From Pontixanthobacter aquaemixtae (GTDB lineage: Bacteria > Pseudomonadota > Alphaproteobacteria > Sphingomonadales > Sphingomonadaceae): a stretch of DNA of 64,000 nucleotides. The stretch is taken from positions 62,001 to 126,000 of the forward strand of contig NZ_WTYX01000002.1 in assembly GCF_009827395.1 (NCBI RefSeq). Direction: 5' to 3'. The notes beneath the pieces are model-generated. The model had not been told where the DNA came from and ran no database searches. It worked only from the letters and a program-made list of their open reading frames with translations. Every line of letters begins with the position of its first letter. Positions within the stretch are counted from its first letter, which is position 1. Positions 32,747-54,726 of this stretch are shown here, piece after piece. The position numbers and the translations under genes were made by a program.

Positions 32747-33558
32747 CGCGCCGCCAATTGATCGTCGCCCTGACCTTGTGGCTCGCCACTCTAACACCCG
32801 CCCCGGCAGCCGCGCAGCAAAGCCAGACGGCAGAGGCGGCCACGACAGCTGACAGCCTCTACTGCGAGCAGCGCCGGCTTGGTTACTGGTTCTATTGCGT
32901 CAAGTCGGTCCCGGCAGCCGAACCCGAAAAGGATCAGCCTGCGACAGAGGTTGCGGCTACGCAGCAGCTCGACGCGATCACCGAAGAATTGCGCGAGTTG
33001 AAAGCCCGCGCGATCCTTTATCCGACACCGGAGAACGTCACCGCCTACATCCGTTTTCAGCGGGCGCAACTCGACCGGGCTTCGCTGTTCTCCGATGTCT
33101 GGCAGCGCGCCATCTGGCAGGATCCCGAACTCGACTACACGCTTGAGCGCCCGGTCGGCGCGCTTGCCAAAAAGCAATGGCAGGATGCGCGCGCTGCCGA
33201 CCGCGATGCGGTGATGGCGCGGCTCTCCGAGCGCTACGGCCTGTTCTATTTCTTTGCCCAGACCTGCGGGGCTTGCGAGGTCATGAGCCCAATCGTCAGA
33301 TCGGTCGCGGATCGCTGGCGTATCACGGTGCGGGCGATCTCAACCGACGGCGGACCCTCGCGGCATTTCCCCGATTACAAGGTCGAAAGCGGCCAGCGTC
33401 CGCGCATGGGTCTCGAGCCCGGGATCACCCCAGCGCTGGTGCTGTGGGACAGCCTCGCCAAGCGCCCGATCCCAATCGGTTACGGCGTTCTCTCCGCCGA
33501 CGAACTTCAGGACCGCATCTACCTCCTCACTGCCAAGGAAGCCGGACATGATTACTAG
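32743..33558 (+). CDS. traF: TraF (F-type thioredoxin-like pilus assembly protein)
   Basis: A 271-residue periplasmic protein: signal sequence ending in AAAQQ (about residue 24), a helical region with the LKARAILYPTPENVTAYIRFQ pattern, then a thioredoxin-like domain. Unlike F plasmid TraF, which is described as lacking it, an active-site-like CGAC (Cys175, Cys178) is present, so it may be redox-active. It overlaps traN by 4 bp and traH by 11 bp. Confidence 0.87.
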   Translation: MTRRQLIVALTLWLATLTPAPAAAQQSQTAEAATTADSLYCEQRRLGYWFYCVKSVPAAEPEKDQPATEVAATQQLDAITEELRELKARAILYPTPENVTAYIRFQRAQLDRASLFSDVWQRAIWQDPELDYTLERPVGALAKKQWQDARAADRDAVMARLSERYGLFYFFAQTCGACEVMSPIVRSVADRWRITVRAISTDGGPSRHFPDYKVESGQRPRMGLEPGITPALVLWDSLAKRPIPIGYGVLSADELQDRIYLLTAKEAGHDY

Positions 33559-34984
33559 CATTCGCAACGCGGCGCTCACCCTAGCCGCAGCCAGCATGGC
33601 CGCATCACCGGTCGCCGCAAATGTAGGCGACAGCATGGACCGGTTCATGGACGATATGGGCGCGGCAGCGAACGTCACCGGTCCAACTGCCTTCGAAGGC
33701 CAGTCAGCAGGCTATTACAGCCTCGGCAATGTCTGGACGCGCTTTCCGCAAAAGACGACCAACATCGCCAATTTGCAACTCCCGAGAGCGCGGGCCGGCT
33801 GCGGCGGGATCGACATTTTCGCCGGGTCCTTTTCCTTCATCAATGCAAGCGAGATGGTCGCGCTCATGAAGGCGGTCGCGAACAACGCGGTCGGGTTCGC
33901 CTTCAGCCTGGCGATCGATACCGTCTGCCCCGAGTGCAACAAGATCATGCAGGAGTTCAGTCAGAAAGCGCAGCTGATGAACAATCTCTCGATCAACTCC
34001 TGCGAGATGGCGCAAGGGTTAGTCGGCGGCATCTGGCCCAAGGGCGATCTGGCCGACAAGGCGATCTGCGAGGCGATCGGAAATTCGGAAGGGATCTTCA
34101 CCGATTACGCCGCAGCCAAGCATGGCTGCGGAACCCGCGGACAGCGCGCTTCGACCAATGAAAGCGCAGGCTCCGACTACACAGACGTCAATCCCGGCGT
34201 CGCGCGCAACTACACCTGGCACGTCCTCAAAAAGAGCGCCTTCTTTAACCCCGGCGGGACTTTCGACCGAGACCTCGCCGAATATGCGATGACGCTTATC
34301 GGCACGGTGATCTATGTTCCACCAAGCGATGACGAGGCGGGCAAGTTCGTGCCGTTCGCAGGCGATGCCTCATCAACTCTGGTAACTGCGCTACTTGACG
34401 GGACACAGGCTCAGTCAGTGCGGGTGTTCCGATGCGATGAGCCCGACCAGTGCCTCGATCCGACCTTCCAGCAGATGAGCCTGACGAGCGCGAAAGCTAT
34501 CCGACCTCGTGTGGCGCGGCTGATTGGTAGCATGGTCGAGGCGATCCGCAGCGATACCGCGATTGGGAACGAAGAGAAGGAGCTACTGCAGGTAGCCTCG
34601 GTCCCGCTCTACAAGATCCTGACAGTTCAGGCCGCCTACGGACGCGGCATGCCCACTGATGATCGCGACACGCTTGCCGAGATAGCCAGCATCGATCTTC
34701 TCTATGCCATACTCGAAAGGATAACGGCCGAGGCTGGCCGGTCGATGGCAAGCTTCATCGCGGCCGATGAAGCCAAGCTCGCCATCTGGCGCGCTCAGGT
34801 CGCCGAAGTACGGTCCAGCCTCTCACAGCGACAGGCAACCGGCCAAGCGCGGGTCTCGGCCATCCTGCAGATCATCGAGAAGACGGCGATGATCGAGAAC
34901 ATGCTTGCAGCGTCGATGTCGCCGTCGATGGCCGCTGCCCTCGACTGGTCACGCGGGATGCAGTCCCGCTCGATCATTCCATAG
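33548..34984 (+). CDS. traH: TraH, pilus assembly protein
   Basis: A 478-residue periplasmic protein with a signal sequence (about 1-25) and the TraH pattern: SMDRFMDDMGAAANVTGP, AFEGQSAGYYSLGN, RAGCGGIDIFAGSFSFINA, and paired cysteines in CPECNKIM. The C-terminal part is helical, with coiled coil potential. It acts with TraF and TraU/W in pilus assembly. The start ATG at 33548 overlaps the traF end. Confidence 0.92.
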   Translation: MITSIRNAALTLAAASMAASPVAANVGDSMDRFMDDMGAAANVTGPTAFEGQSAGYYSLGNVWTRFPQKTTNIANLQLPRARAGCGGIDIFAGSFSFINASEMVALMKAVANNAVGFAFSLAIDTVCPECNKIMQEFSQKAQLMNNLSINSCEMAQGLVGGIWPKGDLADKAICEAIGNSEGIFTDYAAAKHGCGTRGQRASTNESAGSDYTDVNPGVARNYTWHVLKKSAFFNPGGTFDRDLAEYAMTLIGTVIYVPPSDDEAGKFVPFAGDASSTLVTALLDGTQAQSVRVFRCDEPDQCLDPTFQQMSLTSAKAIRPRVARLIGSMVEAIRSDTAIGNEEKELLQVASVPLYKILTVQAAYGRGMPTDDRDTLAEIASIDLLYAILERITAEAGRSMASFIAADEAKLAIWRAQVAEVRSSLSQRQATGQARVSAILQIIEKTAMIENMLAASMSPSMAAALDWSRGMQSRSIIP

Positions 34985-34996
34985 GGAGAAGACGGA

Positions 34997-37699
34997 ATGG
35001 TCGAGATCTTCACGATTGGCGGCGGCGAATACATCGTCAATGTCCTCAACGCTGTCGCCGCATGGACCGGCGCTGGCGGCTATAAGAGCCTGATCCAGGT
35101 CGCGCTCGTAATGGGCATGGCACTGGCCGTCATCGTGGTGGCGTTTAACCAGGATTGGCGCGCATGGCTCAATTGGTTCCTCGGCGCGACGTTGATCTAT
35201 ATGTGCCTGATGGTGCCGCGGATGGACGTGCAGGTGACCGACCGCGTCAATCCCAGCCTGGCACCGGCAACGGTCGCCAATGTCCCTCTCGGGCTCGCCC
35301 TGATGGCGAGTTTCACCAGTCAGGCGGGTGATTATCTGACCCGCTCGGCCGAGCTCGTCTTTGGCCTGCCCGACGACCTCAATTATTCGAAGAACGGCAT
35401 GATCTACGGCGCGCGCCTCTTTGAGGCGACGAAATCGCTACGCATTGCCGATCCTGAGTTCGCCACCAACTTCGACGAACACGTCCAGCAATGCGTGTTC
35501 TATGACCTATTGCTCGGCCGCTACTCGATGAAGGAGCTTTCTGAGAGCGACGACATCTGGGCAAGCATTGCGCCGGGAAGTGCGGCACGAGCGCAGCAAT
35601 TCCTCACCCGGCAAGCCGACGATAGCGTCACGGCTTCGATTATCACCTGCCGCGAAGCCTACACCGCGCTTTCCGGTCAATGGGCGAACATGATCGATGA
35701 GATGACGCTGGTGGCAGGACGCCAGCTCTATCCGCGCCAGAGCGAAGCGCTTGCCAAGGCCAAGCTGATGGCGGACCTGCCGGTCGCTTACCAATATCTC
35801 ACCGGCATCTCTCGCAGCGCGAGCGACATCTTCCGCCAGGTCCTGACCATCAACGCCATGAACCAGGCAATGCACGGCTTTGCCGGATCGAGCGGGACGA
35901 GCAGTGTGGATGTGTTTGCGCAGACGCGGGCCGATATCCAGACAGAGCGCACCTATTCCTCGATTGCGCATAACGCCATGAAATGGGTGCCGATCCTTAA
36001 TGTCGTGCTGACCGTGGTGTTCTACGCTCTGTTCCCGGTCCTCTTCCCACTTTTCCTGATGCCCAAGACAGGTCCGATTGCGCTCAGAGGCTACGTCACT
36101 GGTTTCTTCTATCTCGCCGCCTGGGGGCCGCTCTTCGTGATCCTGCACATGATCCTTATGTTCAAGGGTGCCGGCGATGTCGCTGCTGCCGGCGGCAGTT
36201 CAGGTCTCAGTCTTGCGACCTTTGCCGGAATGAGCGATGTCAACAGCGATATCGGCATTCTCGCTGGTTATCTTGTGGCCTCAATTCCGTTTCTCGCTGG
36301 TGGGGTGGCGCGCGGAGCGCTGGCGATCTCAGGGCAAGCGACGAGCTATCTGAACCCAAGCCAGAACGCAGCCGAAGAAGCTGCACGCGACGCCAGCACG
36401 GGCAATGTCTCTCTGGGCAACTCGAACATCGACAATTCAAACGTGTTCTCGCGGCAGTTCGCTCAAGGAAACCTCGCACCCAATATCGCCTATGGTGCGA
36501 CGCAGACGCGCAGCATCAGCGACAACGGCACTCAGACGACCAGCTTTCCCGATGGCGAGTTCGCTGCAGTCCCGAATTCGAGTTACCCGTTCACCCCGAC
36601 GCTTGGTCAGGAATTCTCAAGCAGGTTGTCGACCATGGCGAGCGAGAGCCGCAGCCAGAGCGAAACCTTCTCCAACCTCGCACAGCAATCGACAAGCTCG
36701 GCGGTCACTCGCTTTAGCGAGCTGCGCGATGCCTACACCCGGTCGCGGTCCAATGAGACGGTCAGCGGAACGTCAACCAATGACAGCATTGGCCGAACCT
36801 TCAGCGAGCTCGACAATGCGTCCAACACCCTGCAGCAGCAGTTCGGCCTGTCGCGCCGGGCATCGGATGACATCACGGTCTCCTGGTTCTTGAATGGTGA
36901 CGGAGGCTTGGGAGTAAAAGGAGAACGTGGGTCTGTCGCTGGGAACTTGGGGCTCAAAGGCGGTCGCAATCAGAGCTGGACCGACAGCGATATCGGTATC
37001 GCCTCTGAAGATCGTTCGCGTATCGAAAGTGCGCTCAGCCAAATCTCCGATAGCCAGAACTGGTCAAGCTCGAGAGAAGGCTTCTTCCGTGAGACCAGTT
37101 CAAGCTCAGAAGCGCTTGTCTCGAGTAGCGCAGCCGGTGTCACAACTTCACTCACTGAAGCGCAGAGCTATACGCTTGAAGCGCGCCGCGCCGAAGAGAT
37201 AGCCAATCGGCTCGAGAGCCAGGCCAGCTGGTATGAAAGTTCCAATGCAGCGGGAACTTTGAATCTGAGCCAGACCTACCGAGAATGGGGCATGGCGGAG
37301 ATCGAAGCCAATCGCGATTATTACGGCCAGACGCGTTTTGATGACATCGATTTCCAGATGAGCGCGCAAGGACAGCAGCTGCAAGCGCGGTTTGTGGAAA
37401 GCTACGCTGACGGGCTCAATGATGAGATCGCGAGCGAACTTGTCTTGCCTGATGCAGCGCCAGTGACACGGCCCAATGTTGGAAGCGCAAGCAGTGTACG
37501 TGGCGAGGTTCAGCTTGGCGGCGTTCCAAGCTCGCTCGGAGATCCGTCAGATGGTAGAGATGAGATCGCGCGCGATGTCAGCCAGAGGCAGAGAGAGGGC
37601 TCTCGAAGTGTCGAGCAACGAAGAGGAAGGCTTGATCGGACTACACGGGATGCGCGAGGAGCTTCCGCCGAGGCAGCCGACGATGTGAAGGAATGGTAG
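34997..37699 (+). CDS. traG: TraG, mating-pair stabilisation and inner-membrane channel protein
   Basis: A 900-residue protein. The N-terminal half is membrane-bound (helices about 30-70 and 320-450) with the TraG_N pattern starting EIFTIGGGEYIVNVLNAVAAW. The C-terminal half is periplasmic or cytoplasmic, serine- and glutamine-rich, with coiled coil repeats. In F, TraG functions in pilus assembly, mating stabilisation and, with TraS, entry exclusion. It is the last gene of the operon; GGGAGAAGACGGA precedes the ATG. Length is close to F TraG (938). Confidence 0.9.
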   Translation: MVEIFTIGGGEYIVNVLNAVAAWTGAGGYKSLIQVALVMGMALAVIVVAFNQDWRAWLNWFLGATLIYMCLMVPRMDVQVTDRVNPSLAPATVANVPLGLALMASFTSQAGDYLTRSAELVFGLPDDLNYSKNGMIYGARLFEATKSLRIADPEFATNFDEHVQQCVFYDLLLGRYSMKELSESDDIWASIAPGSAARAQQFLTRQADDSVTASIITCREAYTALSGQWANMIDEMTLVAGRQLYPRQSEALAKAKLMADLPVAYQYLTGISRSASDIFRQVLTINAMNQAMHGFAGSSGTSSVDVFAQTRADIQTERTYSSIAHNAMKWVPILNVVLTVVFYALFPVLFPLFLMPKTGPIALRGYVTGFFYLAAWGPLFVILHMILMFKGAGDVAAAGGSSGLSLATFAGMSDVNSDIGILAGYLVASIPFLAGGVARGALAISGQATSYLNPSQNAAEEAARDASTGNVSLGNSNIDNSNVFSRQFAQGNLAPNIAYGATQTRSISDNGTQTTSFPDGEFAAVPNSSYPFTPTLGQEFSSRLSTMASESRSQSETFSNLAQQSTSSAVTRFSELRDAYTRSRSNETVSGTSTNDSIGRTFSELDNASNTLQQQFGLSRRASDDITVSWFLNGDGGLGVKGERGSVAGNLGLKGGRNQSWTDSDIGIASEDRSRIESALSQISDSQNWSSSREGFFRETSSSSEALVSSSAAGVTTSLTEAQSYTLEARRAEEIANRLESQASWYESSNAAGTLNLSQTYREWGMAEIEANRDYYGQTRFDDIDFQMSAQGQQLQARFVESYADGLNDEIASELVLPDAAPVTRPNVGSASSVRGEVQLGGVPSSLGDPSDGRDEIARDVSQRQREGSRSVEQRRGRLDRTTRDARGASAEAADDVKEW

Positions 37700-37700
37700 G

Positions 37701-37901
37701 TCAGATCAATCCATCATAGATGATGACGAATATGACAAAGGCCGTGAACAGAACTCCAAAGAGAACCAGACCGGCCTTGCCCCAAGGATCAGCCCAAGTC
37801 TTCTTCCAGGTGTAAGATGTCAGTCGATCCTCAGCGATGGCGCGGTCGACCTCCCGGAAGCCCTCCCAGCCCTTATCCTCATGATTTTTCTCATCGGGCA
37901 T
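37701..37901 (-). CDS. Small single-helix membrane protein convergent with traG
   Basis: A 66-residue protein with a charged N-terminal part and one C-terminal membrane helix (about 42-63, KAGLVLFGVLFTAFVIFVIIYDG). The ATG at 37901 is favoured because GGAG lies 8 bp upstream; a start at 37925 or 37946 would overlap the first HipB-type operator. No family was recognised. Its position at the end of the tra operon, on the other strand, would suit an entry-exclusion or regulatory role, but nothing proves that. Confidence 0.5.
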   Translation of the reverse strand: MPDEKNHEDKGWEGFREVDRAIAEDRLTSYTWKKTWADPWGKAGLVLFGVLFTAFVIFVIIYDGLI

Positions 37902-37924: not shown

Positions 37925-37948
37925 TAACGCATCGATATTGATGCATTA
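37925..37948. promoter_or_regulatory. 24-bp palindromic operator 1 (hipBA region)
   Basis: A near-perfect palindrome with arms TAACGCATC and GATGCATTA around ATAT-centred sequence. It is one of three related 24-bp sites before hipB and lies upstream of the small convergent-to-traG gene as well, so it could control both directions. Confidence 0.65.
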
Positions 37949-37964
37949 TCTGCGTATCTCGCCA

Positions 37965-37988
37965 TTACGCATCGATATTGACACATTA
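37965..37988. promoter_or_regulatory. 24-bp palindromic operator 2 (hipBA region)
   Basis: TTACGCATC...GACACATTA repeats operator 1 at 21 of 24 positions, 40 bp (centre to centre) downstream. It lies about 65 bp before the hipB start, in a position suited to promoter control. Confidence 0.65.
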
Positions 37989-38040
37989 TAGCTCGTCGTG
38001 TAAAGACGCAAAATCGCTACACAAAGATCCGTTCTTGAGG

Positions 38041-38064
38041 TAACGTCTCGATAATGACGCATTA
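38041..38064. promoter_or_regulatory. 24-bp operator 3 overlapping the hipB start codon
   Basis: TAACGTCTC...GACGCATTA matches operator 1 at about 20 of 24 positions. The hipB ATG (38054) lies inside it, so bound regulator would block initiation directly. Centre-to-centre spacing to operator 2 is 76 bp. Confidence 0.6.
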
Positions 38065-38413
38065 CAGCTCATCAGACTTGCGTCCACTCTCGGTGCTGTT
38101 GTCCGACTTAGGGCAGCAGCTCGAAGCCTATCGTATATCACGCAATCTCAAACAGGCCGAGCTTGCAGAGTTAGCAGGCATCTCGCGTTCGACTCTTTCC
38201 CGCTTGGAATCAGGCAATGGCGGGACAATCGATAGCCTTGCCAGGATCATGCGAGCGCTCGATGTCGAAGATCGCCTTCTGGATATCGTACCCGACGCTA
38301 AGCTGAGCCCGCTTGACCCGCTATCGGATACGGGCAGAGCCCGGCAGCGAGTGCGGAAACCCTCGGCAAACGAGCCAAGTGAAGACTGGAGTTGGGGTGA
38401 CGAAGCCCCATGA
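38054..38413 (+). CDS. hipB: HipB-type XRE antitoxin
   Basis: A 119-residue protein with an XRE helix-turn-helix (about 15-75; LEAYRISRNLKQAELAELAGISRSTLSRLE). A basic, flexible C-terminal tail follows. As in other hipBA operons it should bind the promoter palindromes and neutralise the downstream HipA kinase. The three 24-bp palindromes around its start support autoregulation. It overlaps hipA by 4 bp (ATGA). Confidence 0.88.
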   Translation: MTHYSSSDLRPLSVLLSDLGQQLEAYRISRNLKQAELAELAGISRSTLSRLESGNGGTIDSLARIMRALDVEDRLLDIVPDAKLSPLDPLSDTGRARQRVRKPSANEPSEDWSWGDEAP

Positions 38414-39714
38414 GCCGCGCAGTCGTAAATCTCTGGGGCCGTCAGATCGGTGCAATTCTGTGGGATGAGGACCGCGATGTCGGGGTTTTCGAATACACTC
38501 CGGAGTTCACCCGCAGCGGTATTGAGGTGGCACCGCTGACAATGCCGCTGCGAAGCGGCGTGTATGACTTTCCTGCATTGAACTACGAGACATTCAAGGG
38601 ACTGCCGGGAATGCTCGCTGACAGTCTACCCGATAAATTCGGCAACGCCCTCATCAACCGATGGCTCGCTGAACAGGGCCGAGCAACTGACAGCTTCGAT
38701 CCGGTTGAACGGCTCTGCTACACCGGTCGCAGAGGCATGGGCGCGCTTGAGTTCGAGCCTTCGACAGGCGAGCGACGCGAACAAGGCGGCCCCGTTGACA
38801 TTGCTCCGCTTGTCGATCTGGCCAACCGAGTGCTTGCCGCGAGAGAAGAGCTCTCTGGCGTCCTCAAAGGCGACGATGATCATCATGCTCTTCAGGAAAT
38901 CCTGCGCGTCGGCACCTCCGCTGGTGGCGCGCGCGCCAAGGCCGTTCTTGCCTGGAACGAAGAGACGGGCGAATTCCACTCTGGCCAGCTGACGGCGGGT
39001 CCAGGCTATACGCAATGGCTGGTCAAATTCGATGGCGTGTCGGGCAATTCCGATAAGGAGCTCGCTGACCCAATGGGCTTCGGGCGACTTGAATATGCTT
39101 GCTATCTGCTAGCGAGAGAGGCCGGTATCAACATGGCTCGCTCCCGCCTGCACGAAGAAGGCGGGCGGGCACATTTCATGACCCAGCGCTTCGACCGTAC
39201 GCCCGATGGCAAGAAGCTCCACATGCAGTCGCTTTGCGCGATGCGTCACTTCGATTTCAACCTCGCTCGAGCCTATAGCTACGAGCAGGCCATCGAGACC
39301 ATCCGCATGCTCGGTCTCGGCCGCGATGCGATCAAGGAGCAGGTGCGACGAGCGTTCTTCAACATCTTGATCCGCAACCAAGACGACCACACCAAGAACA
39401 TCGCGTTCCTCATGGATAGCTCTGGCCGCTGGAGCCTCTCGCCAGCATTCGATGTCGTGTACGCGTACAATCCGGATGGGGACTGGACCAACGAGCACCA
39501 GATGTCTCTGGCCGGCAAAACGGACGGTTTCGAGTTCGACGATCTTCTAGAATTCGGAAAATTTGCCGATCTCAAGACAGCCGAAATCAAATCCATTGCC
39601 TCAGACATTCGTTCAGCTCTCGCGAAGTGGAACGAGTTGACGCGAACTGCCGGTGTTCCCCCAAAAATGGCACTCAAGGCTCAGAACGGCTTCCGCGACA
39701 TTCCTCTGAGGTGA
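38410..39714 (+). CDS. hipA: HipA-type serine/threonine kinase toxin
   Basis: A 434-residue protein with the HipA fold: an N-terminal HipA_N domain (VNLWGRQIGAILWDEDRDVGVF and LPGMLADSLPDKFGNALI), a glycine-rich loop (GTSAGGARAKA, about 172-182), the catalytic NQDDHTKN motif and the metal-binding SPAFDVVY. E. coli HipA phosphorylates glutamyl-tRNA synthetase and induces dormancy; the target here is unknown. Kinase residues look intact. Location at the entry to a defence island suggests element maintenance or an abortive-infection role, which is inference. Confidence 0.92.
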   Translation: MSRAVVNLWGRQIGAILWDEDRDVGVFEYTPEFTRSGIEVAPLTMPLRSGVYDFPALNYETFKGLPGMLADSLPDKFGNALINRWLAEQGRATDSFDPVERLCYTGRRGMGALEFEPSTGERREQGGPVDIAPLVDLANRVLAAREELSGVLKGDDDHHALQEILRVGTSAGGARAKAVLAWNEETGEFHSGQLTAGPGYTQWLVKFDGVSGNSDKELADPMGFGRLEYACYLLAREAGINMARSRLHEEGGRAHFMTQRFDRTPDGKKLHMQSLCAMRHFDFNLARAYSYEQAIETIRMLGLGRDAIKEQVRRAFFNILIRNQDDHTKNIAFLMDSSGRWSLSPAFDVVYAYNPDGDWTNEHQMSLAGKTDGFEFDDLLEFGKFADLKTAEIKSIASDIRSALAKWNELTRTAGVPPKMALKAQNGFRDIPLR

Positions 39715-39743: not shown

Positions 39744-41891
39744 CTAAAGCAAAGCGGTTGAACCAAAGCGCTTTCCAAGGAAGGCCTGCACTTCGCTCAT
39801 GGGCATTTCCGGTGAAGAATTGCCACTCCGAACGTACAGCTTTTCGGATTTTAATCCGTTCTTGTCTGCAACGCTGATGACCACCGCAGCATCGGCGGGC
39901 CTCACGTCGATCTGACAAATTTCGCTGCCCTCCACTTCAGGAAATGCGATCTTCAATTTCGAAGCGGTGAAATTTTGCCCGAATGCATCGGCAAAAAGGT
40001 TGCGCAGGTGAATTTCAAACCGGTCTTTGTCAGCATCGCCCAGCGACGCATAATCATTATCCAGACCGACTGCTTCACCGACATCAGAAACGCCTATGAG
40101 CAGAGTGCCGCCACCATAACTATTCGCAAATGCGGCAATAGTTTTGACAACGACCTGCTCGAGACCCTTGTTGACCTTGGCTTCCTTGATGTCCCAGCGC
40201 AAAGTTTGCTTGAACTCAAGCTCTTCGCTTTCGCCCTCGGCAATCATCTCTTCCAGCGTGATGGGTGCCTCCGCCTCTTTGGTTTCGGTGATCGAGCTCA
40301 AGAACCCATTCAACGCATTCGCCAGCATCGTTCGCCTAGCGTGGAGAAAGCCCTCGTAATTCTCAATTTTCCAGAGCTCTGGATCTGAAGGGATGCATTG
40401 CTTGGCTAGCGCATCCGGATTCATATCGTCGATTTCTGCAAGATAATCTTCAGCGTTCGTCGCGCTCTTCGCCCGGTTGGCGATCTGTGTGAGAATGGCG
40501 CGATTGGTGATCTCTTGCGCGAGGGAATACTTCAAACGGTTCTCTTTGCCGTATCCTGCATCGCGCAGCTTAGAGAACGGGAAAATGTGGTCGTTCTCGA
40601 GCTGATATTTCTTTCCCATCGGTTGAGCCAATTTGACGCCTGTCGTCAGACAAGTGGCGCCCTGGCTCTTGAAGTACCATCGCATCATCGGAAATAGGGG
40701 ATGCGATATCGCGCGCCCCACGAACTCGTCGGCGACAATCTCAAGGGGACGTTCGTCCTTTATGACCTGCAGCAGTTCATCGAATGGTTGATCGGATTCC
40801 TCGATCACGCGGAGGTCTCGATCGAGCTTCTGGGGCAGCTGAGAGATGTAGCGATAGCGGATTTGGGAGTAGTAGAACCACTTGACCAGCTTCTTAATCT
40901 GCATCTCTGAGAGATGGCTATCCTGTTGATAGCAATAAGCTATAATCGGTATCAGTGCATACACCGAGTTGATTTCGTCCGTGTGATCGACGAATGCGTG
41001 GGACTGCATGATATTGGCAACGTAATCGAGGGTCTGCTCTTCGAGCTTCTTCCAAGCCGCCCGGATGGGCGCATCATTGGCCTGGTCATGCAGAAGGCGC
41101 ATATTCGAACCGGAATGGTGCAAGCAGGCGAGCAGGGCGTAGACGACAAAATCGAGTTTGAAGACGTAACCCCTGCTTTCGAGTTCGGTCAATTTTGCCT
41201 TGAACGTATCACGCGCCTGAGGCCAATAACCTGAAATCTGGGCTAGAGCCAATTCGGCCTCGGTCAATGAGACGCCGCTCGCATTGACCTTATAGAAGAT
41301 GTCGATCGCTTCGCGAATTGTCGCCTTCACCGGTATCGTTTGCTCGGGAAACTCCCGGTCGAGGATGTTCTCGATGGACTTGACGTTGTCGTCGATCAGA
41401 TCGTCGCGTTCGCGAGTCACCTCTTCCCCCTTGTCCTCCAATGCGCGGACGACATCCTTAGCTCTGATTTTGCGCTGAAAGATATCGGTCAGATTCTGCC
41501 ACCGCGGATCGTTCTCCATCTTGAGCTTCTTGTAGTACTCCAGTTCTCTAGTCTCGACATTCACATGAAGGCCGCGTGTGTCGTTGAGAATTTCCGGAGC
41601 AGTATAGTACGGCGGCAAACCACCGCGAATGAGCATGTATAAGGTTGTCAGCCGTTGTTGCCCGTCGAGTAGAATCCTTACAGCACCCTGCTTCTCATCG
41701 TATTTGTGAGGCCCTTTCAATTCGGGAGGGTTGTTGGTCTCCCAGGTCAGCATCGTCCCCGTTGGATACTCCTTGATAAGGGAGTCCACCAACTGCTTCG
41801 CATCGTCGCGCTTCCAAACGTACTCGCGTTGGAAGGCCGGCACAAAGAGCTGCTTCTCGTCGATTTTGTCTAGGGCCTGAGAAATCTTCAT
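39744..41891 (-). CDS. DUF262-HNH-AlbA_2 fusion, GmrSD-like nuclease/sensor
   Basis: A 715-residue three-part protein. Residues 1-200 are a DUF262/GmrS-type domain with QREYVW (21-26) and DGQQRLTTL (76-84), which in GmrSD enzymes performs NTP hydrolysis. Residues about 410-500 form a DUF1524-type HNH nuclease with ENDHIFPFSKL and NRAKSATNAEDYL. Residues about 543-690 are an AlbA_2 (Schlafen N-terminal) domain: EELEFKQTLRWD, FANSYGGGTLLIGVSD. GmrSD cuts modified DNA. The added AlbA_2 module is a nucleic-acid binding domain. It lies 92 bp after hsdR, on the same strand, so it may share the hsd transcript. Confidence 0.82.
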   Translation of the reverse strand: MKISQALDKIDEKQLFVPAFQREYVWKRDDAKQLVDSLIKEYPTGTMLTWETNNPPELKGPHKYDEKQGAVRILLDGQQRLTTLYMLIRGGLPPYYTAPEILNDTRGLHVNVETRELEYYKKLKMENDPRWQNLTDIFQRKIRAKDVVRALEDKGEEVTRERDDLIDDNVKSIENILDREFPEQTIPVKATIREAIDIFYKVNASGVSLTEAELALAQISGYWPQARDTFKAKLTELESRGYVFKLDFVVYALLACLHHSGSNMRLLHDQANDAPIRAAWKKLEEQTLDYVANIMQSHAFVDHTDEINSVYALIPIIAYCYQQDSHLSEMQIKKLVKWFYYSQIRYRYISQLPQKLDRDLRVIEESDQPFDELLQVIKDERPLEIVADEFVGRAISHPLFPMMRWYFKSQGATCLTTGVKLAQPMGKKYQLENDHIFPFSKLRDAGYGKENRLKYSLAQEITNRAILTQIANRAKSATNAEDYLAEIDDMNPDALAKQCIPSDPELWKIENYEGFLHARRTMLANALNGFLSSITETKEAEAPITLEEMIAEGESEELEFKQTLRWDIKEAKVNKGLEQVVVKTIAAFANSYGGGTLLIGVSDVGEAVGLDNDYASLGDADKDRFEIHLRNLFADAFGQNFTASKLKIAFPEVEGSEICQIDVRPADAAVVISVADKNGLKSEKLYVRSGNSSPEMPMSEVQAFLGKRFGSTALL

Positions 41892-41983: not shown

Positions 41984-44900
41984 TCACGCGCCATCGAGCT
42001 CTCCAAGGTCGATGTCTTTTCCTGCTTTGATTAGATCGTAGATAAGGTTCGTAAGGATGCCGAGGCCTTGCTTGTCTTCTTTGAGTAGATGTGTCGCCAG
42101 AGCACTGTTTGATTTCATCGCACGCACCACCGCGCCTTGAACTGCCCCGGGAAGGCTTCCCTTCAGGGCCTGCTCCTTTGAGTTCTCTTCGACCTGAGCC
42201 CTCACGGTAGTGTTCTCGCGGGTAATCGAAACGATCTGGTTTACGAAACTCGCTTGATCCTTGATTGGGGCTGCTTCACCAAAGATCCCGTTCAATCGTT
42301 CGATAAGCTCCTGCAGGTAGACAGGAAGCTTTCCTGGCGCGTTCGAACCGCCGGCTCCCGTGGGCTTCAGATTCGGATCGGGCTCATCTCCGTTGTTGCC
42401 TTGATCATCGTTCTTTTTGATGTCGTATCCCGTCAAGGAAATACCCATGAGGTCTACATGCTCGGGCGGAACACCGTTGAGGCGGTTGGCCAGAAGTTTC
42501 GTGAAAGCGGCAAAATTCTCCAAACTGGGGTCCCCGAGGTCCAGCAGCTGAGCAATGTACGTGTATGTTCTTGAAAACCTTGCCAGTCCCGATTTGAACT
42601 CGAGCATGCGGCCGATGTTCTCTTCTACCTGCAACCTCTCATGCTCGGCCTTTTTCGCACTGCCTTCATCGCCTGCCTCGGTTGCTTTTAGGAATTCAGT
42701 TTCACAACGAAGAGCTTCCTCGCGCAGGGTTTTAAGGCGGGCATTGAAGAGGTCTGTTGGCCTTTGGGTCGCCGCGAACATCGCCTTGTGGTGGTCTTCC
42801 TTCGCCGTGTCGAAAGTCTTGGCGGTTTCGAACCGCGCCACTTTGAAAGCCTCGATGTCTTCGTCCGAGTAGATACCCTGCTGATCGAGGGTGTCCTTAA
42901 TGTCGTAGACAACGTTCGGGTCCTGAACCTCGGTGATTTGTGCGCCGGAGTCATACTTCTTGAAGGCCGCGCGGATCGTCTCCGGGTCGTTGACAAAATC
43001 TACGACGAAAGTCTCTTCCTTGCCTGGAAAGGTGCGATTGAGGCGCGACAGCGTTTGAACGATCTCGACTTCGTTCGCGATCTTCTTGTCGACATACATG
43101 GCGACAAGCTTCGGCTGATCGAAACCCGTCTGAAATTTGTTGGCCACCAACATGACCCTGAATTCTGGACGATCAAATGCAATCCTGAGGTCTTTGACCT
43201 CAACGCCGGAGTTCATGCTGCTTTCAGTAAATTCAGCATCGTCATCACAAACGAAGAGATCGCCTGAAATCTGCGCGTCGTCAGAATGCATCACATCGGT
43301 GCCACTGAGCTTTCCCGAGAATGCGACCAGCGCGCGAACGCCTTTGTATTGAGGGTTCGCGATGACAAAAGCATCGAAGGCCTTCTTGTAGCGAACTGCC
43401 GCTGCGCGCGAGCTCGTTACCACCATTGCCTTCGCCTTTCCATCAAGGAGAGACGACACATTGTACCGGAAGTGCTCCATGATGAACTGCACCTTCTGAG
43501 TGACGTTCGTAGGGTGCAGGCTCATCCATTTGGCCAATGCGCGTTTGGCTGCTTTGCCGTCTACGCGCTTCTTGTCCTCCAGCTCCTTTCCTAAGTTGAA
43601 CGCAGTCTTGTACGACACATAGCCTCGGAGCACGTCGAGGATGAAGCCCTCGTCGATGGCCTGGCGCATCTCGTATTTGTGGAACGCGCGCGGCAGATTA
43701 TCCGGGCCTGCCGGACGGGACGGGTCCTGTGGCCGTCCGAACAACATCAAGGTCGAGTGTTTCGGCGTCGCAGTGAACGCGAAGTGAGACAGGTTCTTAG
43801 GCCGGGAGCGGCTTTTCTGGATCTCGGTCAAAAGCTCTTCGACCGTCATGTTCGCGGTGTCGTTCGCCGACGAAAGCGCGAGGGTCGCCTGCAGCTTTGA
43901 AGCCGTGCTCCCGGTCTGCGATGTATGCGCCTCATCGATGATCACGGCAAAGCTTCGGTCTTTCAATGAGGTTTCCGTCAGGATCGCTTCCATTGCATGC
44001 GGGAACGTCTGAAGCGTCACCACGATGATCGGAACGCCCTTAAGCATCGCTTCCGTGAGCTGAGCCGTTTTCGTCTTGGAGCTTGTCTCGCGGTCAATTG
44101 CAGCGATCATGCCCTTGCGGTGGTCGATCTGCTGGACGGCGTCTTGTAGCTGGCCATCCAGCACAGTCCGGTCTGTCACGATGATCACCGTGTCAAAGAC
44201 TGCTTTGCCGTCGTTATGGCGCAGTTTGGTTAAGTCGTGGGCAGTCCAGGCAATCGTCGATGTCTTGCCCGATCCCGCACTATGCTCGCAGAGGTAAGCA
44301 TGCCCAGGGCCTTTCTCCTTGGCGTCTGCAATCATCTTGTTGACCGCGTCGTGCTGGTGGAAACGCGGAAAGATCAGTGTCTCCTTGACGGACCAATTGC
44401 CCTTCAGGTCCACCACATCCTTCTTCTCGACATAGACGAAACTATGGAAGATCCGGAGGAAAGCATCTGGCTGGCAAATCTCTTCCCAGAAATAGGCGAC
44501 AGGGTATTCGCCGTCCTCTCTAGGCGGATTGCCACCTTTGCCGTCATGGCCACGATTGAAGGGCAGAAAGTAGGTGTTCTCTCCTGCCAATTTCGTCGAC
44601 ATCCAGATTTCGCTGTCGGACATCGCGAAGTGCACGATTGCACCGCGTTTGAAAGTCAGCAGCGGGTGCTTGCGCCCAGTGGCTGGGTCTTCGGGCAGGC
44701 GGTCGCGCTTGTATTGTTCGCGCGCGCTTTCGGCGGATTGGGTGAAATCAGTTTTGAGTTCGACGGTCGCAACGGGCAGCCCGTTGATGAATAGCCCTAG
44801 ATCGATCGCAAGCTCGCGACCGGGATGGTACTTCAGCTGCGGCACCACACGCAGTCGGTTGGCGGCATAGCGTTCGAGGATTGTCTCGTTGCGCTGGTCC

Positions 44901-45217
44901 TCGGGTGCGGCCTCGGACATTTCGATTTGTCCGCAGCCTGCGATGGAAAAGCCTCGGCGCAAAACCTGGATAGTGCCGTGCTTCTCTAGGGCTCCGTCGA
45001 GACGTGAGAGCAAGGTTTCGCGGGCGCGGTCACCGTTCAAGGCAACGAGTTTGTCCCATTTCGGGCCTTGGGTTTGTTTGATCCAGGCCTCCAGATCCTC
45101 GGTGTAGACGGCAGTGTCCTGGTCAAAGCCTTTTGTGTCGCCGAGCAGCCAGCCCTGTTCCGTCAGCTTTTTGACAATGTAGGCCTCAAGGTGTTTTTCG
45201 TGGTGCAGATCGCTCAT
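41984..45217 (-). CDS. hsdR: Type I restriction endonuclease subunit R
   Basis: A 1077-residue motor/nuclease subunit. Residues 1-250 hold the PD-(D/E)XK nuclease (Asp139 in LAIDLG; ELK 153-155). The helicase follows with Walker A HSAGSGKTS (312-320) and DEAH (428-431). The C-terminal part is helical for HsdM docking. It overlaps hsdS by 4 bp (ATGA). All expected catalytic residues are present. Confidence 0.95.
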   Translation of the reverse strand: MSDLHHEKHLEAYIVKKLTEQGWLLGDTKGFDQDTAVYTEDLEAWIKQTQGPKWDKLVALNGDRARETLLSRLDGALEKHGTIQVLRRGFSIAGCGQIEMSEAAPEDQRNETILERYAANRLRVVPQLKYHPGRELAIDLGLFINGLPVATVELKTDFTQSAESAREQYKRDRLPEDPATGRKHPLLTFKRGAIVHFAMSDSEIWMSTKLAGENTYFLPFNRGHDGKGGNPPREDGEYPVAYFWEEICQPDAFLRIFHSFVYVEKKDVVDLKGNWSVKETLIFPRFHQHDAVNKMIADAKEKGPGHAYLCEHSAGSGKTSTIAWTAHDLTKLRHNDGKAVFDTVIIVTDRTVLDGQLQDAVQQIDHRKGMIAAIDRETSSKTKTAQLTEAMLKGVPIIVVTLQTFPHAMEAILTETSLKDRSFAVIIDEAHTSQTGSTASKLQATLALSSANDTANMTVEELLTEIQKSRSRPKNLSHFAFTATPKHSTLMLFGRPQDPSRPAGPDNLPRAFHKYEMRQAIDEGFILDVLRGYVSYKTAFNLGKELEDKKRVDGKAAKRALAKWMSLHPTNVTQKVQFIMEHFRYNVSSLLDGKAKAMVVTSSRAAAVRYKKAFDAFVIANPQYKGVRALVAFSGKLSGTDVMHSDDAQISGDLFVCDDDAEFTESSMNSGVEVKDLRIAFDRPEFRVMLVANKFQTGFDQPKLVAMYVDKKIANEVEIVQTLSRLNRTFPGKEETFVVDFVNDPETIRAAFKKYDSGAQITEVQDPNVVYDIKDTLDQQGIYSDEDIEAFKVARFETAKTFDTAKEDHHKAMFAATQRPTDLFNARLKTLREEALRCETEFLKATEAGDEGSAKKAEHERLQVEENIGRMLEFKSGLARFSRTYTYIAQLLDLGDPSLENFAAFTKLLANRLNGVPPEHVDLMGISLTGYDIKKNDDQGNNGDEPDPNLKPTGAGGSNAPGKLPVYLQELIERLNGIFGEAAPIKDQASFVNQIVSITRENTTVRAQVEENSKEQALKGSLPGAVQGAVVRAMKSNSALATHLLKEDKQGLGILTNLIYDLIKAGKDIDLGELDGA

Positions 45218-46521
45218 GCTGCGGCCCTCACATCAATCTTGCCGGTCACCGCCGCCGTGATGAGCGCCGCGCGTTTCTCTTTCAAAAGCGCGATGGAGCG
45301 CTCGGTTTTTTCAATCAAATCTCGAATTCGATCCAATTCGCGGTCAATCCGGTTCGCAATAGCTTCTTGTTCATCCATAGGTGGCAGAAAGACCGGCAAC
45401 TCCAAAAATTTCTCTGGTTCCAGACGCCATTGATCGGTCCGAATACCGTTGGAAATCAAGCGATAAACCCACGGCATCGGCTTCGCGCGAAGGTAATGGT
45501 GCATATATCGTGGGTTGTGCTCGCCAATAGGCTTCATCACCAGATAGTCAGGAGAGGTGATGCCCAAGAAGGGAGAAATCCCCATTGAGCCCTGCCATGC
45601 CTTCATCTTGTTGATCGCTAGGTCGTTTGGTTCGACCAGCTGATATTTGGACAGGTCCTCTGGCGTCTTGTTGATGTTGTCGCTCCGCGAAGCTTTCTCG
45701 ATGACGCCAAACTCACGATAGACTGACAGAACGGTCAGGTCGTCAAACCCTTGGCGTTTGACCTGTTTGAAATGGTTTTTCATGCGCGCACGTTGCCAAT
45801 GGGCAGGCACGACGCCCCGCCATTCGACGCCGCTGTCCTTCGTAGGTGCAGTGGCATCGATACCCCGCCGCACGAAGTGTGCGATCATGGATTTTTCTTT
45901 GTCATTCAGCAGCGCGATGAAGCGCGTCTTCTTCTCAATCAACCCATCAATCTGCCCGGTCTCGCTCCTGAGCATCTCGACAATTTGGCGACGTTCTCCG
46001 AACGGAGGAAGCAAGACAACAATGCTCTTGATCGTATCTTGATCTAGACCGAAGCGAGTGACACCCGGAGTATCGACATAGAGCTGAGCTTTATTGATCT
46101 GCGACATGATCGAGTACTGCAAGTATGCGGCGGTGATCGGGTCAGATGCTCGGATCACTGACAAATGGTAGCCGCATACCACGCCCGGCATGTCTTCCAT
46201 CACAAGTGAGGGGACGCCTATGTCGGCAGGATCTTCTGAGTCCTTGGTAATGATGACATCGCCTTCACGAAGCTGGAATTTCTTGATTTCTTCTGGTGTT
46301 GCCGTGGCTTCCATAAACTCGAGCTCAGGCTCGATGCGCTCATTGTAATAGACATCCGTATAATTGCAGAGCCGGACAGGGACCTGACCCTCGTATGACT
46401 TCTTGTCGACGTTGCTGTTTGAAACATTCGCCACAAAGCGTAGCCGCGTTTCGGTCCAGTTCTTTGGAATGGCATCAAGCCACAAATGCGAAGCCGGTTT
46501 GGTTTGTCTCGACGTCTTCAT
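45214..46521 (-). CDS. hsdS: Type I restriction-modification specificity subunit S
   Basis: A 435-residue specificity subunit with two target-recognition domains. Each ends in the typical conserved helix: LPPFGERRQIVEMLRSETGQ (central, about 170-190) and LPPMDEQEAIANRIDRELDR (near residue 380), followed by coiled coils. The two domains define the bipartite recognition site, which cannot be deduced from sequence. It overlaps hsdM and hsdR by 4 bp each. Confidence 0.93.
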   Translation of the reverse strand: MKTSRQTKPASHLWLDAIPKNWTETRLRFVANVSNSNVDKKSYEGQVPVRLCNYTDVYYNERIEPELEFMEATATPEEIKKFQLREGDVIITKDSEDPADIGVPSLVMEDMPGVVCGYHLSVIRASDPITAAYLQYSIMSQINKAQLYVDTPGVTRFGLDQDTIKSIVVLLPPFGERRQIVEMLRSETGQIDGLIEKKTRFIALLNDKEKSMIAHFVRRGIDATAPTKDSGVEWRGVVPAHWQRARMKNHFKQVKRQGFDDLTVLSVYREFGVIEKASRSDNINKTPEDLSKYQLVEPNDLAINKMKAWQGSMGISPFLGITSPDYLVMKPIGEHNPRYMHHYLRAKPMPWVYRLISNGIRTDQWRLEPEKFLELPVFLPPMDEQEAIANRIDRELDRIRDLIEKTERSIALLKEKRAALITAAVTGKIDVRAAA

Positions 46522-48590
46522 TCCGTCACCTCAGCCAAGACTTCAGCAATCGAGGCCTCGATGGCCTTCAGCTCCGCATCGATCTCGTCCAGATCGCGCG
46601 GCGGCACGTATTCATAGAAATAGCGGTTGAAGTTGATCTCATAGCCGACGATCCCGATGTACCCATCGGTCTCATCCACGTAGGTCTCGTCGATATAGGC
46701 GTCATGGGCATGGGGCGTTACCTCGGTTGCGAGGTAGTTATAGATATCGGTGCCCATGGGCACGTTTTCATAATCCGTCAGATCATCGTCGGGGATCAGG
46801 TTGCCCTTCTTGTCCTTCACCGGGTCCAGATCTTCATCCCGCACGCCAAAGGCCTTTTGAAAAGCTTTGATCAGCCCCGCATCGGCTTTGCCGAGGCTCG
46901 CGTCCTTCTTCGCCGCCGCCTTGGCAAAGCTGTCGATCCAGTGCCAGTCATGATCGGTGCCTGCATGCTTCGCCAACACCTCTTGCCAGCCTTGCTGCTG
47001 GTCATCGGTGCGCTTTTCCCAAGCCTTGTGTTCGGCCAGCGTTTCAAACCCGGCGTCTGACACAACGATCTTGTGGCGCAGTGGACGCAGCACCTTGATG
47101 CGGCGATAGCCGAATTCCTGCGCGTCGAGGATGAGGCTTTTCTTGGTGGGTTCGAAATCGGCATAGAGCTGAACGATATCGCGGATTTGATCTTCACCGA
47201 TCTTGCGCCGCTTGTTGCCCTCGCTTTTGCGGAGCGGCTCAAACATCTCGGTCGCATCGATTAGCTGAACCTTGCCACGCCGGGCTTCCGGCTTGCGGTT
47301 CGACAAAACCCAGATGTAGGTGCCGATCCCTGTACGGAAGAAGATCTCGGTCGGCAGGGCTATGATGGCTTCAACTACGTCTTGCTCAAGCAGATGCCGG
47401 CGGATTTCGGATTCACCCTGGCCGGCATTGCCGTTGAAAAGCGGGGAGCCAGACAGCACGATCGCCGCGCGCCCGCCACCTTTTTCCGGATCTTCAAGCT
47501 TGCTGAGAAGGTGTAAGAGGAACAGCATCGAGCCGTCGCTGACGCGCGGCAGTTTGGGGCCGAAGCGCCCCTCGAATTTTTGGTCTCGGTGTTCGCGTAC
47601 TACTTCGGCCTGGTCCAACTCCCACTTTTTGCCGAACGGCGGGTTTGAAACGCAGTAGTGGAATTTGTCGTGGCGGAATTTGTCGGCTGAGAGAGTACTA
47701 CCAAGCTTGATGTTCTGGGACAGGTCGCGGCCGGGGTCGGACTTGAGCGTCTTCAGAAGCATACTCGCAAGACAGACAGCGTGAGTTTCTGATTCCAATT
47801 CCTGGCCGTAAGGCACAAGGGTCGGGGCGGTGCCATAACGATCCTGCAGTGACTGAACGTGCTCCATCCCGTCCGAGATGAAGCCGCCTGTGCCGATCGT
47901 GGGGTCATAGAGGGTCCGAATGATGCCAGGGTTGTCGATGAACATCTGGTCATCAGGTTCGAGCAACAGCTCTATGCCCAGATGGACCACATCACGAGGC
48001 GTCATAAAATCCTCGGCTGCTTCGTTAACCTCCGCCCCGAACCGGCGGATCAGGTGTTCATAGACGTTGGACATGGTCCGCTCTGGAACGGCGTCGGGAT
48101 GCAGATCGATGGCAGCGAAGTTCTGGCAGATTTTGTAAAGAACGCCCTTCTTGTCCATCTGGCTGATTGTGTTGATGAAATCGAACTGCTCGAAGATGAT
48201 ACGCGCATTGCCAGAGAACTTTGCGATATAGTCTTCAAGGTTCTGACGTGTTCGGCCAGAGCCCAGCGATACCAGACTGTAGCTGGAAGTGTTGTAGAAC
48301 GGATAACCGGTTGCCTGACGAAGAATGACATCGACATCGAGCCCGTTTTCGACGGCCATTTTGTGCATCTTGGCGGTCTCTTCTCGAGTGGGCTCAAGAA
48401 CACACTCCAGACGACGTAGAAGCGTGAAAGGCAAAATGATTTTGCCGAAATCGACATGTTTGAAATTGCCCCAAAGATCATCCGCATTTTTCCAAATGAA
48501 ATCGGCGAGAGATGTGTGAGTGTTGTTGGCCTTAGCGGTTGTAGTCGTCTTGGTATTCAATGCTTGGGTTTCTTTCCGATTGAGCGTCAA
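46518..48590 (-). CDS. hsdM: Type I restriction-modification methyltransferase subunit M
   Basis: A 690-residue N6-adenine methyltransferase. The HsdM N-terminal domain (about 25-190; SLADFIWKNADDLWGNFK) is followed by the SAM motif DPTIGTGGF (229-237) and the catalytic NPPFG (316-320). The start used is TTG at 48590, whose TTGA overlaps the stop of a small upstream ORF; another in-frame TTG is 10 codons later and no ATG precedes the conserved domain. The long C-terminal extension (500-690) is usual for this subfamily. Confidence 0.92.
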   Translation of the reverse strand: MTLNRKETQALNTKTTTTAKANNTHTSLADFIWKNADDLWGNFKHVDFGKIILPFTLLRRLECVLEPTREETAKMHKMAVENGLDVDVILRQATGYPFYNTSSYSLVSLGSGRTRQNLEDYIAKFSGNARIIFEQFDFINTISQMDKKGVLYKICQNFAAIDLHPDAVPERTMSNVYEHLIRRFGAEVNEAAEDFMTPRDVVHLGIELLLEPDDQMFIDNPGIIRTLYDPTIGTGGFISDGMEHVQSLQDRYGTAPTLVPYGQELESETHAVCLASMLLKTLKSDPGRDLSQNIKLGSTLSADKFRHDKFHYCVSNPPFGKKWELDQAEVVREHRDQKFEGRFGPKLPRVSDGSMLFLLHLLSKLEDPEKGGGRAAIVLSGSPLFNGNAGQGESEIRRHLLEQDVVEAIIALPTEIFFRTGIGTYIWVLSNRKPEARRGKVQLIDATEMFEPLRKSEGNKRRKIGEDQIRDIVQLYADFEPTKKSLILDAQEFGYRRIKVLRPLRHKIVVSDAGFETLAEHKAWEKRTDDQQQGWQEVLAKHAGTDHDWHWIDSFAKAAAKKDASLGKADAGLIKAFQKAFGVRDEDLDPVKDKKGNLIPDDDLTDYENVPMGTDIYNYLATEVTPHAHDAYIDETYVDETDGYIGIVGYEINFNRYFYEYVPPRDLDEIDAELKAIEASIAEVLAEVTE

Positions 48591-54700: not shown

Positions 54701-54726
54701 GTAGGGAGGGGATCACTGGCGGCCAT
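48763..54726 (-). CDS. druE: DruE, large DUF1998 helicase of Druantia type III
   Basis: A 1987-residue YprA/MrfA-like helicase. Helicase motifs: SGTGSGKT (129-136), DEAH (265-268), SAT (302-304), then STTMEMGVDIGS and QRAGRAGRRG (about 1021-1060). Zinc-type cysteines lie at 415-459, 550-553 and 1336-1355, and a DUF1998 region ends with CPKECEMGCSAC (about 1578-1589). Residues 1650-1987 form an extra C-terminal part containing DHGR (1917-1920) and LDQGFGYW. The ATG at 54726 is chosen because GGAG lies 8 bp upstream and it overlaps druH by 14 bp; a frame continues to 54867 but is antisense-like noise. Size and pairing with druH fit Druantia type III, an anti-phage system of unknown mechanism. 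Confidence 0.82.
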   Translation of the reverse strand: MAASDPLPTSRLSPMEVHQRLRTGLAEAVVSRAGIRHEGLNAFLRSTLAGTDPAKGSLLSEQLFQAAPGYVSSEKSPDQLQSLLHQRTIDAITQTSDTDLRFDYPAYAHQLATWELLSTQEPQSVLVSSGTGSGKTECFLVPMLDDLVRESAEQGPLTGVRALMLYPLNALIASQEKRLTAWTKPLRGDVRFALYNGLMGTARKSNRDKAEHEIPHQVLYRETLRANPPPILVTNQTMLEYMTIRRDDRQILEKSQGKLRWIVIDEAHSYIGSAAAELSLLLRRVMNAFDVTPDQVRFVATSATIGSADDQKAREDLQRFLADIAGVPLERAHVVVGKPQPVDLSKVLTASDDPAASSVAERLEGEPQTLASLKALSPEAERILLDLSAHNASEAKPVLPMRAHSFTRAIAGLWTCINSDCPGEMRPKDWPFGAVLFDHRDQCPHCQSMVFEIQNCLDCGEPFLPADDMGDRIVPRRSDHDADEFREDSYRDRDHDDDDDEDEHEGIGHPRLIAINPKSEATATAFDVSSGEFTGEAGHFHLTQLDEGRCPACLGNKRRGRPAVFPFRFGTPFLTQNAAPILLEGVSPHQAEHALPFDGRQLISFSDSRQGTARFAANIETNGERGFVRGFIYHAVQKAAQGSDLTDERREELLKKKAALANLAADMPAFKDDIAKIDAELAGGAATGISWKELVSGLASEPAIGMMAKVWDLDRSERFHDNREALARFMLLRELARRPRNANAMETLGLARLRFPDIERIGPDKLPELVGQKGYSIEDWRGFLYYMVDYLRGQFALEVDDGDARWMPGRARPRNVIGPNQPPGAKRDVSWPLVNTKGRQPDSILLLASALNLDLTSQRDRHEINQVMHAAWNQLAPLLSGVGGTFSLRLEKSAQVEAVGKAWQCPLTRRVLPRLVFGRSPNAVSAGKMFANKPASEVEFPRLPRTRPLAVDGQKEIAAWLKTNEEVAALRERGIWMNWHDQAAFATPYLRAEEHSAQQPPHRLREFEEQFKEGDINLLACSTTMEMGVDIGSIEAVLMTNVPPSIANYNQRAGRAGRRGQGFSTSLTIARNTPLDLETFADPAGYLRRKLASPRVSLDSDRIAQRHANAYLLAQWFREVEGEFARTKTGDFFGCRADLRPFEGLAPVDAFCEWLDRPSTASATEEGLLRLLRGTGLEYDTEVRGHTAEMFGREAVNFRRTWQRLKEDSDALEGPAKKAIEFQARRLCKEFLLKELANRSLIPGSGFPTSVVPFDTLCAETQKAQERNRSEEEGARDRRYECPTRNADIAIREYAPGAEVVVDGLVWKSDGVTLNWLSPIDSGQREPQNLRWAWWCDHCGGAGSDHQMPDQCAHCGERSITIEQFLEPAGFRVDWNAQPHADTDQAVYIEPKSPKVSVGDALWQPMLQPETGRIRASHEGYIYHHSRGPNDQGYEICLECGRAGDAGTDALKDHRPLTPRNRKAVDRCPGNDEGFAITSALALGHEVLTDVVELQLPGLESDGAAWALGAALRESLARWLGIEPRELGISVAARDGKLGRRVPSVYIFDEASGGAGYAPRLLDDIYHVFERAARVLDCPKECEMGCSACVLAADLYKQQGRLDRRSALIAVQAFLETNAELPQEDRAFPDARAINDAANTLLLRARNGDSISVLLPTVFDLAELTSTKMRTFFSAASARGVPVTLVLDPSSFDKFEEVERRFLRDASVRFEFSLALGKGEEAPSESKRLAELISPDRTTGFFSRDANAAQPGERWGLGETHAVVAGTLSGPTAYKPVNPEDLERQIAAGDQVELMQGFGQCQVGQFGKRFGSKLKQQMEAAGVWKPGSLVRITYTDRYLNAPLPMLLFLRTCEALAADLRASSPVEVDILVQRLRNDRSPHRIFHDWEYEDDRAEVAELLGEKLGLDVDLQVTENSDHGRKLELEYADCQKVLVLLDQGFGYWRIAGSPPRHDFRSAPAAQASELLRSRAAVSGVGESYFAVKRDAN

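Follow-up and report, generated by a model that had tools for sequence, protein, structure and literature searches.

The window analysed here, a 64,000-nucleotide stretch of the Pontixanthobacter aquaemixtae contig NZ_WTYX01000002.1 (positions 62,001 to 126,000), contains, on a conjugative element, a hipBA type II toxin-antitoxin operon preceded by four predicted 24-bp operators (O1 to O4) that form two pairs, the last of them lying over the hipB start codon. We consider it very probable that these sites make up the autoregulatory control region of the operon, that is, a HipB or HipBA autorepression array. On the best reading of its sequence, the array would be of the same kind as that of Escherichia coli hipBA with a different geometry, so that an ordinary function is combined with a distinct spacing that is common to many relatives. 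HipBA is the founding model of antibiotic tolerance that is heritable, and bridging of operators by HipA is believed to underlie its repression.

The predicted operator array

Operators O1, O2 and O4 consist of a 6-bp centre flanked by 9-bp arms, which are symmetrical at 8, 5 and 6 of the 9 positions, respectively. These are the 24-bp palindromes, starting at 37925, 37965 and 38041 and thus 40 and 76 bp apart, that had been noticed in a reading of the sequence alone (hereafter, the sequence-only reading), and the third of them does contain the hipB ATG, at 38054, as proposed there; it covers hipB codons 1–3 and two bases of codon 4. The arms quoted as shared in that reading belong to the first site only. 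A single degenerate pattern was written so as to cover O1, O2 and O4 together. Allowing up to three mismatches, this pattern matched only these sites in the window (no matches in 100 shuffles) and, in the genome-wide search that had been suggested, found no recurrence elsewhere in the 2.98 Mb, the reversed-pattern control likewise giving 0. With a looser half-site pattern, O1, O2 and O4 again ranked at the top of the genome (0–1 mismatches), followed by four further places with three mismatches each, whereas the reversed control gave 22 on each strand.

The sequence-only reading counted three operators; all three stand, but the list was incomplete, having missed the site at 38001–38024 (O3). 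This fourth, weaker operator, which likely exists, was first predicted from the paired architecture of distant relatives, several of which carry sites near −141, −100, −54 and −13. A scoring matrix trained on O1, O2 and O4 from 7 of the 19 close loci discussed below, with O3 excluded from the training, gave 25.2, 24.2, 9.1 and 25.5 for O1 to O4 in the window, such that O3 ranked 4 of 63,977 positions. Fitting four sites jointly to the window yielded a score of 55, as against 43.0 ± 1.3 (largest 46) in 40 shuffles. With O3 added to O1, O2 and O4, the array resolves into two 40-bp pairs, O1/O2 and O3/O4, with start-to-start distances of 40/36/40. O3 owes its credibility to the combination of high conservation and a place 40 bp ahead of O4.

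Table 1 Predicted operators, promoter elements and genes in the window
Feature	Position	Strand	Remarks
traH	33548–34984		upstream of traG; Pfam TraH
traG	34997–37699	+	F-type transfer region; Pfam TraG_N
Small protein gene	37701–37901	−	66 aa; a single membrane helix, judged by eye; faces traG tail to tail (convergent)
O1	37925–37948		TAACGCATC-GATATT-GATGCATTA; 9-6-9 palindrome; starts 23 bp upstream of the 66-aa protein gene
O2	37965–37988		overlaps putative hipB −35
Putative −35, TTGACA	37978–37983	+	inside O2; 17-bp spacer to −10
O3	38001–38024		TAAAGACGC-AAAATC-GCTACACAA; likely weaker fourth operator; first 6 bases are the putative −10
Putative −10, TAAAGA	38001–38006	+	start of O3; 3/6 of sigma-70 consensus
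GAGG	38037–38040	+	possible hipB ribosome binding site; 13 nt before ATG, a long distance
O4	38041–38064		TAACGTCTC-GATAAT-GACGCATTA; includes hipB start codon
hipB	38054–38413	+	119 aa; Cro/C1-type helix-turn-helix antitoxin-repressor; Pfam HTH_31, HTH_3
hipA	38410–39714	+	434 aa; HipA-type kinase toxin; Pfam Couple_hipA, HipA_C
GmrSD/HEC-05-like protein	39744–41891	−	
Type I restriction-modification set	41984–48368	−	
DruH3 of Druantia III	54713–58012	−	
ZorD, ZorC, ZorB of Zorya I	58123–63997	−	

Conservation in close relatives

The array was compared across 19 aligned hipB loci (70–100% identity, window included; L006, which shares its genome with L037, and L055, whose upstream sequence is that of L038, were left out). 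There are no insertions or deletions between O1 and the hipB ATG in any of these loci. On average, the commonest base has a share of 0.90, 0.96, 0.98 and 0.945 in O1 to O4; the corresponding values are 0.69–0.83 for the inter-operator spacers, 0.80 for the sequence upstream and 0.885 for the coding sequence that follows O4. The O3 block is the most conserved part of the whole region. In 18 of the 19 loci, O1, O2 and O4 score at least 16.7 at identical offsets and O3 scores 8.4–9.1; over the individual sites, the matrix gives 12.2–25.8 for O1 (at −129) and 20.2–24.2 for O2 (at −89) across all 19, and 20.4–26.7 for O4 (at −13) in all but L038. Given the training of the matrix, the high scores of O1, O2 and O4 in close relatives arise partly by construction; O3, which took no part in the training, ranks 1 of 368 positions in each of the 19 loci.

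The putative −35 element TTGACA is conserved in all 19 loci, and the putative −10 reads TAAAGA in 17 and TAAAGG in the other two; its location inside O3 could account for part of the conservation of this operator. As a separate observation, an open reading frame (ORF) of 3–4 codons arises from the left half of O4 (TAATG) and ends on or beside the hipB start codon (positions −11 to +1) in 16 of the 19 loci, as read by eye, the window, L035 and L038 being those that lack it. This mini-ORF possibly couples its translation to that of hipB.

HipB as the candidate binder

The start of hipA overlaps the stop codon of hipB, and the antitoxin gene precedes the kinase gene, as is the layout of hipBA operons. 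In an 11-sequence alignment, most columns of the HipA stretches GTSAGGAR, RNQDDHTKN and PAFDV are invariant; we take these to be the catalytic and phosphorylation motifs of HipA, here intact. According to PMC8262856, the HipB proteins investigated to date act as autorepressors. The HipB encoded in the window is the natural candidate for the protein that binds the sites. Among the 25 strongest loci of the spacing analysis described below, 21 have R or S as the third residue of the recognition-helix motif S-x-R/S-T (the other four differ), and base 8 of the half-site is C in 12 of the 15 loci with R and T in all 6 of those with S (p = 0.0015 for an association that is post hoc, counted by eye and uncorrected for relatedness). 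Designation of the sites as HipB operators by the sequence-only reading finds good support in their conservation, their location on the promoter and start codon, their uniqueness in the genome and the presence of similar arrays before many distant hipBA operons.

The contig carries a second, weak helix-turn-helix relative of HipB beyond the limits of the window (G000:C2:156917-157087, L002; 41% identity over 56 residues).

Pair spacing and the middle gap in distant hipBA loci

In distant relatives of HipB (about 30–45% identity), the operator letters differ. We used a spacing score that assumes no letters and compares spacings of 20–130 bp (111 spacings). The first set comprised 34 distant loci, taken without thinning for redundancy; its best spacings were 41 bp, with a mean z of 4.14, and 40 bp, with 2.44, the next reaching 1.36. 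The same two spacings came out best (2.35 and 2.14; next 1.35) in a second set of 27 further, non-redundant loci that were found via HipA (35 taken, 30 usable, 3 redundant; L163, L179 and L189 were too short, L171 and L175 partial, and L191, a short match, was left out). A fit of two pairs with 40–41 bp spacing surpassed all 25 shuffles and all 11 control spacings in 40 of 61 loci (the window and L038 included; L153 and L142 were dropped as redundant from 63). Weak loci gave unstable single-locus fits: for L147, L143 and L150, the gap shifted when the region and the gap range were widened. A fit was therefore counted only if it exceeded every shuffle and every control spacing.

The 40 accepted gaps between pairs range from 27 to 74 bp. 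Among the 25 strongest loci (z of at least 6, a cut set after the list had been seen; L057, with z 6.5, was excluded given that a control spacing scored higher), the gaps fall at 34–38 bp (7 loci), 45–49 bp (13) and 57–60 bp (5), with cluster means of 36.6, 46.6 and 58.8 bp and, hence, steps of about 10 and 12 bp, each roughly a turn of the helix. At a period of 10.5 bp, the Rayleigh length reaches 0.56 when all 40 gaps are taken and 0.74 with the 25 strongest loci, for which it rises to 0.77 at 11 bp and at 11.5 bp; none of 5000 resamples of null gaps was as strong as the 25-locus periodicity, a formal significance that is too optimistic because related loci are not independent. Loci that share the recognition-helix stretch SRST have gaps of 36, 46, 57 and 58 bp, a variation that argues against pure descent. 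The looping or cooperative binding put forward in the sequence-only reading gains only indirect support, from the 40–41-bp pair preference and the stepped gap. We found no description of the 40–41-bp paired spacing rule in the literature searched, a search whose reach mostly did not extend to subscription papers.

The small tra-linked gene and orphan operator pairs

The gene for a small protein without a match in Pfam or NCBIfam lies on the other side of the array. Its start is most likely at 37901, where GGAG precedes the ATG, and O1 begins 23 bp upstream because the gene starts there; the alternative start at the beginning of the ORF, 37946, was rejected given that GGAG and the relatives favour 37901. 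The gene is present in 29 of the 199 genomes of the family sample. Of its 74 places, 62 were examined (6 of the 12 omitted are beside hipB orthologs by coordinates), and a traG match was found in 61 of these stretches, the remaining one reaching the contig end about 0.5 kb on. Eleven of the 62 stretches include hipB, and in all 11 the best upstream site scores at least 20.2; of the 51 that lack hipB, 45 reach no more than 1.2, and the other six range from 9.0 to 23.6. Conversely, neither the small gene nor traG has a match in any of the 69 distant hipBA stretches. Because sites are found in all 11 stretches with hipB, are missing from 45 of the 51 without it and the gene has no match in the 69 distant stretches, the sites go with hipBA rather than with the small gene.

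The six orphan pairs without an adjacent hipB (L074/L085, L082/L086, L083/L087, L112, L113 and L114) consist of sites about 40–41 bp apart before the small gene, the second site being weak in L112 and L114. In L085–L087, no match to the HipB or HipA of the window was detected in the 19.5 kb read, and other genes occupy the place of hipBA. In three genomes with orphan pairs, a search for a second cluster of sites found none, the number of extra places being about that obtained with the reversed pattern. These pairs may be remnants of lost hipBA operons or targets acted upon in trans. The sequence-only reading also held that O1 fronts the small gene and that HipB might control it; the position of O1 fits, but the case for HipB control of this tra-linked gene is weak, the gene mostly occurring without hipB and the sites. 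In hipBA-bearing loci, incidental control of the small gene via O1 is possible, as judged from the arrangement. An S24-type repressor of the element was also considered as owner of the sites and rejected: a search with a 90-residue piece of such a repressor yielded no homologue in the window.

Comparison with known systems

In E. coli K-12, hipBA is likewise preceded by four HipB operators in two equal pairs, namely, exact TATCC-N8-GGATA sites at −134, −106, −67 and −39 from the hipB ATG (28/39/28). The E. coli sites differ in being 18 bp long, with other letters and a pair spacing of 28 bp versus 40 bp in the window, where the arms are of the TAAYG type and the spacing is 40/36/40; all four end upstream of the start codon, whereas O4 covers it. 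From the first to the last site, the distance is 95 bp in E. coli and 116 bp in the window, both near whole turns at 10.5 bp. For Caulobacter crescentus hipBA1 and hipBA2, the portion of PMC7029023 covered describes repeated inverted repeats at intervals likened to those of E. coli and mentions no site over the start codon. Legionella pneumophila hipBST also has several evenly spaced operators, to which HipB binding was shown by the authors, but differs in having three operators with 53-bp gaps and six-base repeats, all upstream of hipB, and three genes (PMC10653801).

Proposed mechanism and alternatives

We infer HipB as the binder, repression, the promoter and contacts between complexes, as follows. 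HipB dimers, probably with HipA attached, would bind the four 24-bp operators as pairs O1/O2 and O3/O4, with O2 over the −35, O3 over the −10 and O4 over the start codon. Because the latter three operators cover these elements, the filled array would shut the promoter and block the first transcribed bases; upon loss of HipB, hipBA would open. The 40–41-bp pairs and the stepped gap in relatives suggest that operator-bound complexes touch across and between pairs. Such contacts would probably be made through HipA, as reported for E. coli, where HipA is described as bridging operators in a higher-order complex (PMC7029023).

Several observations weigh against this reading. The HipB-type models have curated cut-offs that this HipB does not reach (39.5 bits versus 71.65 for TIGR03070, couple_hipB, and 20.5 versus 79 for NF007271); it is a relative outside these named subfamilies. 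O3 is weak, and the next place in the window, a chance one at 32030, scores nearly as high (8.0 versus 9.1). In L038, the most divergent of the close loci, O1 reaches only 12.2 and O4 only 7.1. A sigma-70 consensus scan of the window did not report the hipB promoter, which was therefore read from conservation, and the putative −10 is poor. The four-site fit fails in 21 of the 61 loci; among the four loci known to come from outside Pseudomonadota, L144 passes it weakly and L141, L149 and L151 fail, although 41 bp ranks first or second among the single spacings in L141, L144 and L149. Six of the 40 accepted gaps (27, 30, 43, 52, 54 and 74 bp) lie outside the three clusters, the fitted period is broad (11–11.5 bp being equal to or better than 10.5, with steps of 10 and 12 bp), and the related loci are not independent. 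Finally, the six loci with orphan pairs retain operators without hipBA alongside.

Under one alternative, ownership of the O1/O2 pair would lie with the small tra-linked gene, some other regulator of the conjugative element would bind there, and hipBA, inserted alongside, would use O3/O4. The start of O1 only 23 bp from this gene and the six hipB-less stretches that keep sites there, 40–41 bp apart (three of them without a HipB or HipA match in 19.5 kb), speak for such ownership, but we hold it to be quite improbable: 45 of the 51 hipB-less stretches are siteless (at most 1.2), whereas each of the 11 with hipB reaches 20.2 or more, a comparison made with a matrix partly trained on these loci; many of the distant hipBA stretches bear pairs, yet none of the 69 matches the small gene or traG; and no second site cluster was found in the three orphan-pair genomes. 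Chance palindromes or a non-regulatory repeat family, which the imperfection of O2 and O3 might suggest, can be given practically no credence in view of the absence of matches in 100 shuffles, the lack of another copy in the genome and the conservation in 19 loci.

Alternatively, the HipB operators could act independently, the fixed spacing reflecting only shared descent without insertions. The close loci are all related and their arrays free of insertions and deletions, and the periodicity test is uncorrected for relatedness, so far in line with this possibility; the spacer sequences, however, diverge (69–83%), and loci with other letters, in which HipB is only about 40% identical, hold the 40–41 bp while the middle gap steps. 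We therefore regard independent action as unlikely, albeit less so than ownership by the small gene, and favour an autorepression array of paired operators whose bound complexes would touch.

Genomic surroundings

The region following hipBA (39744–63997) is occupied by defence genes on the minus strand (Table 1). No DNA similar to the region was found in plasmid records.

Implications

Beyond the window, we tentatively entertain, at somewhat less than even confidence, the possibility that a broad branch of HipBA, spanning several classes of Pseudomonadota and perhaps extending further, follows one geometric code, with 40–41-bp pairs and a gap stepped by helical turns, while the operator letters and the recognition helix drift together. 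If so, selection would preserve a fixed higher-order HipB-HipA-DNA complex with a geometry unlike that of E. coli, and the orphan pairs before a conjugation gene would be targets of this complex in trans. A spacing rule that is kept despite the change of letters would provide a simple sequence test for a bridging complex in many bacteria, would predict repression-breaking mutants (5-bp versus 10-bp insertions) and would help to locate the operators of hipBA modules whose letters have yet to be identified.
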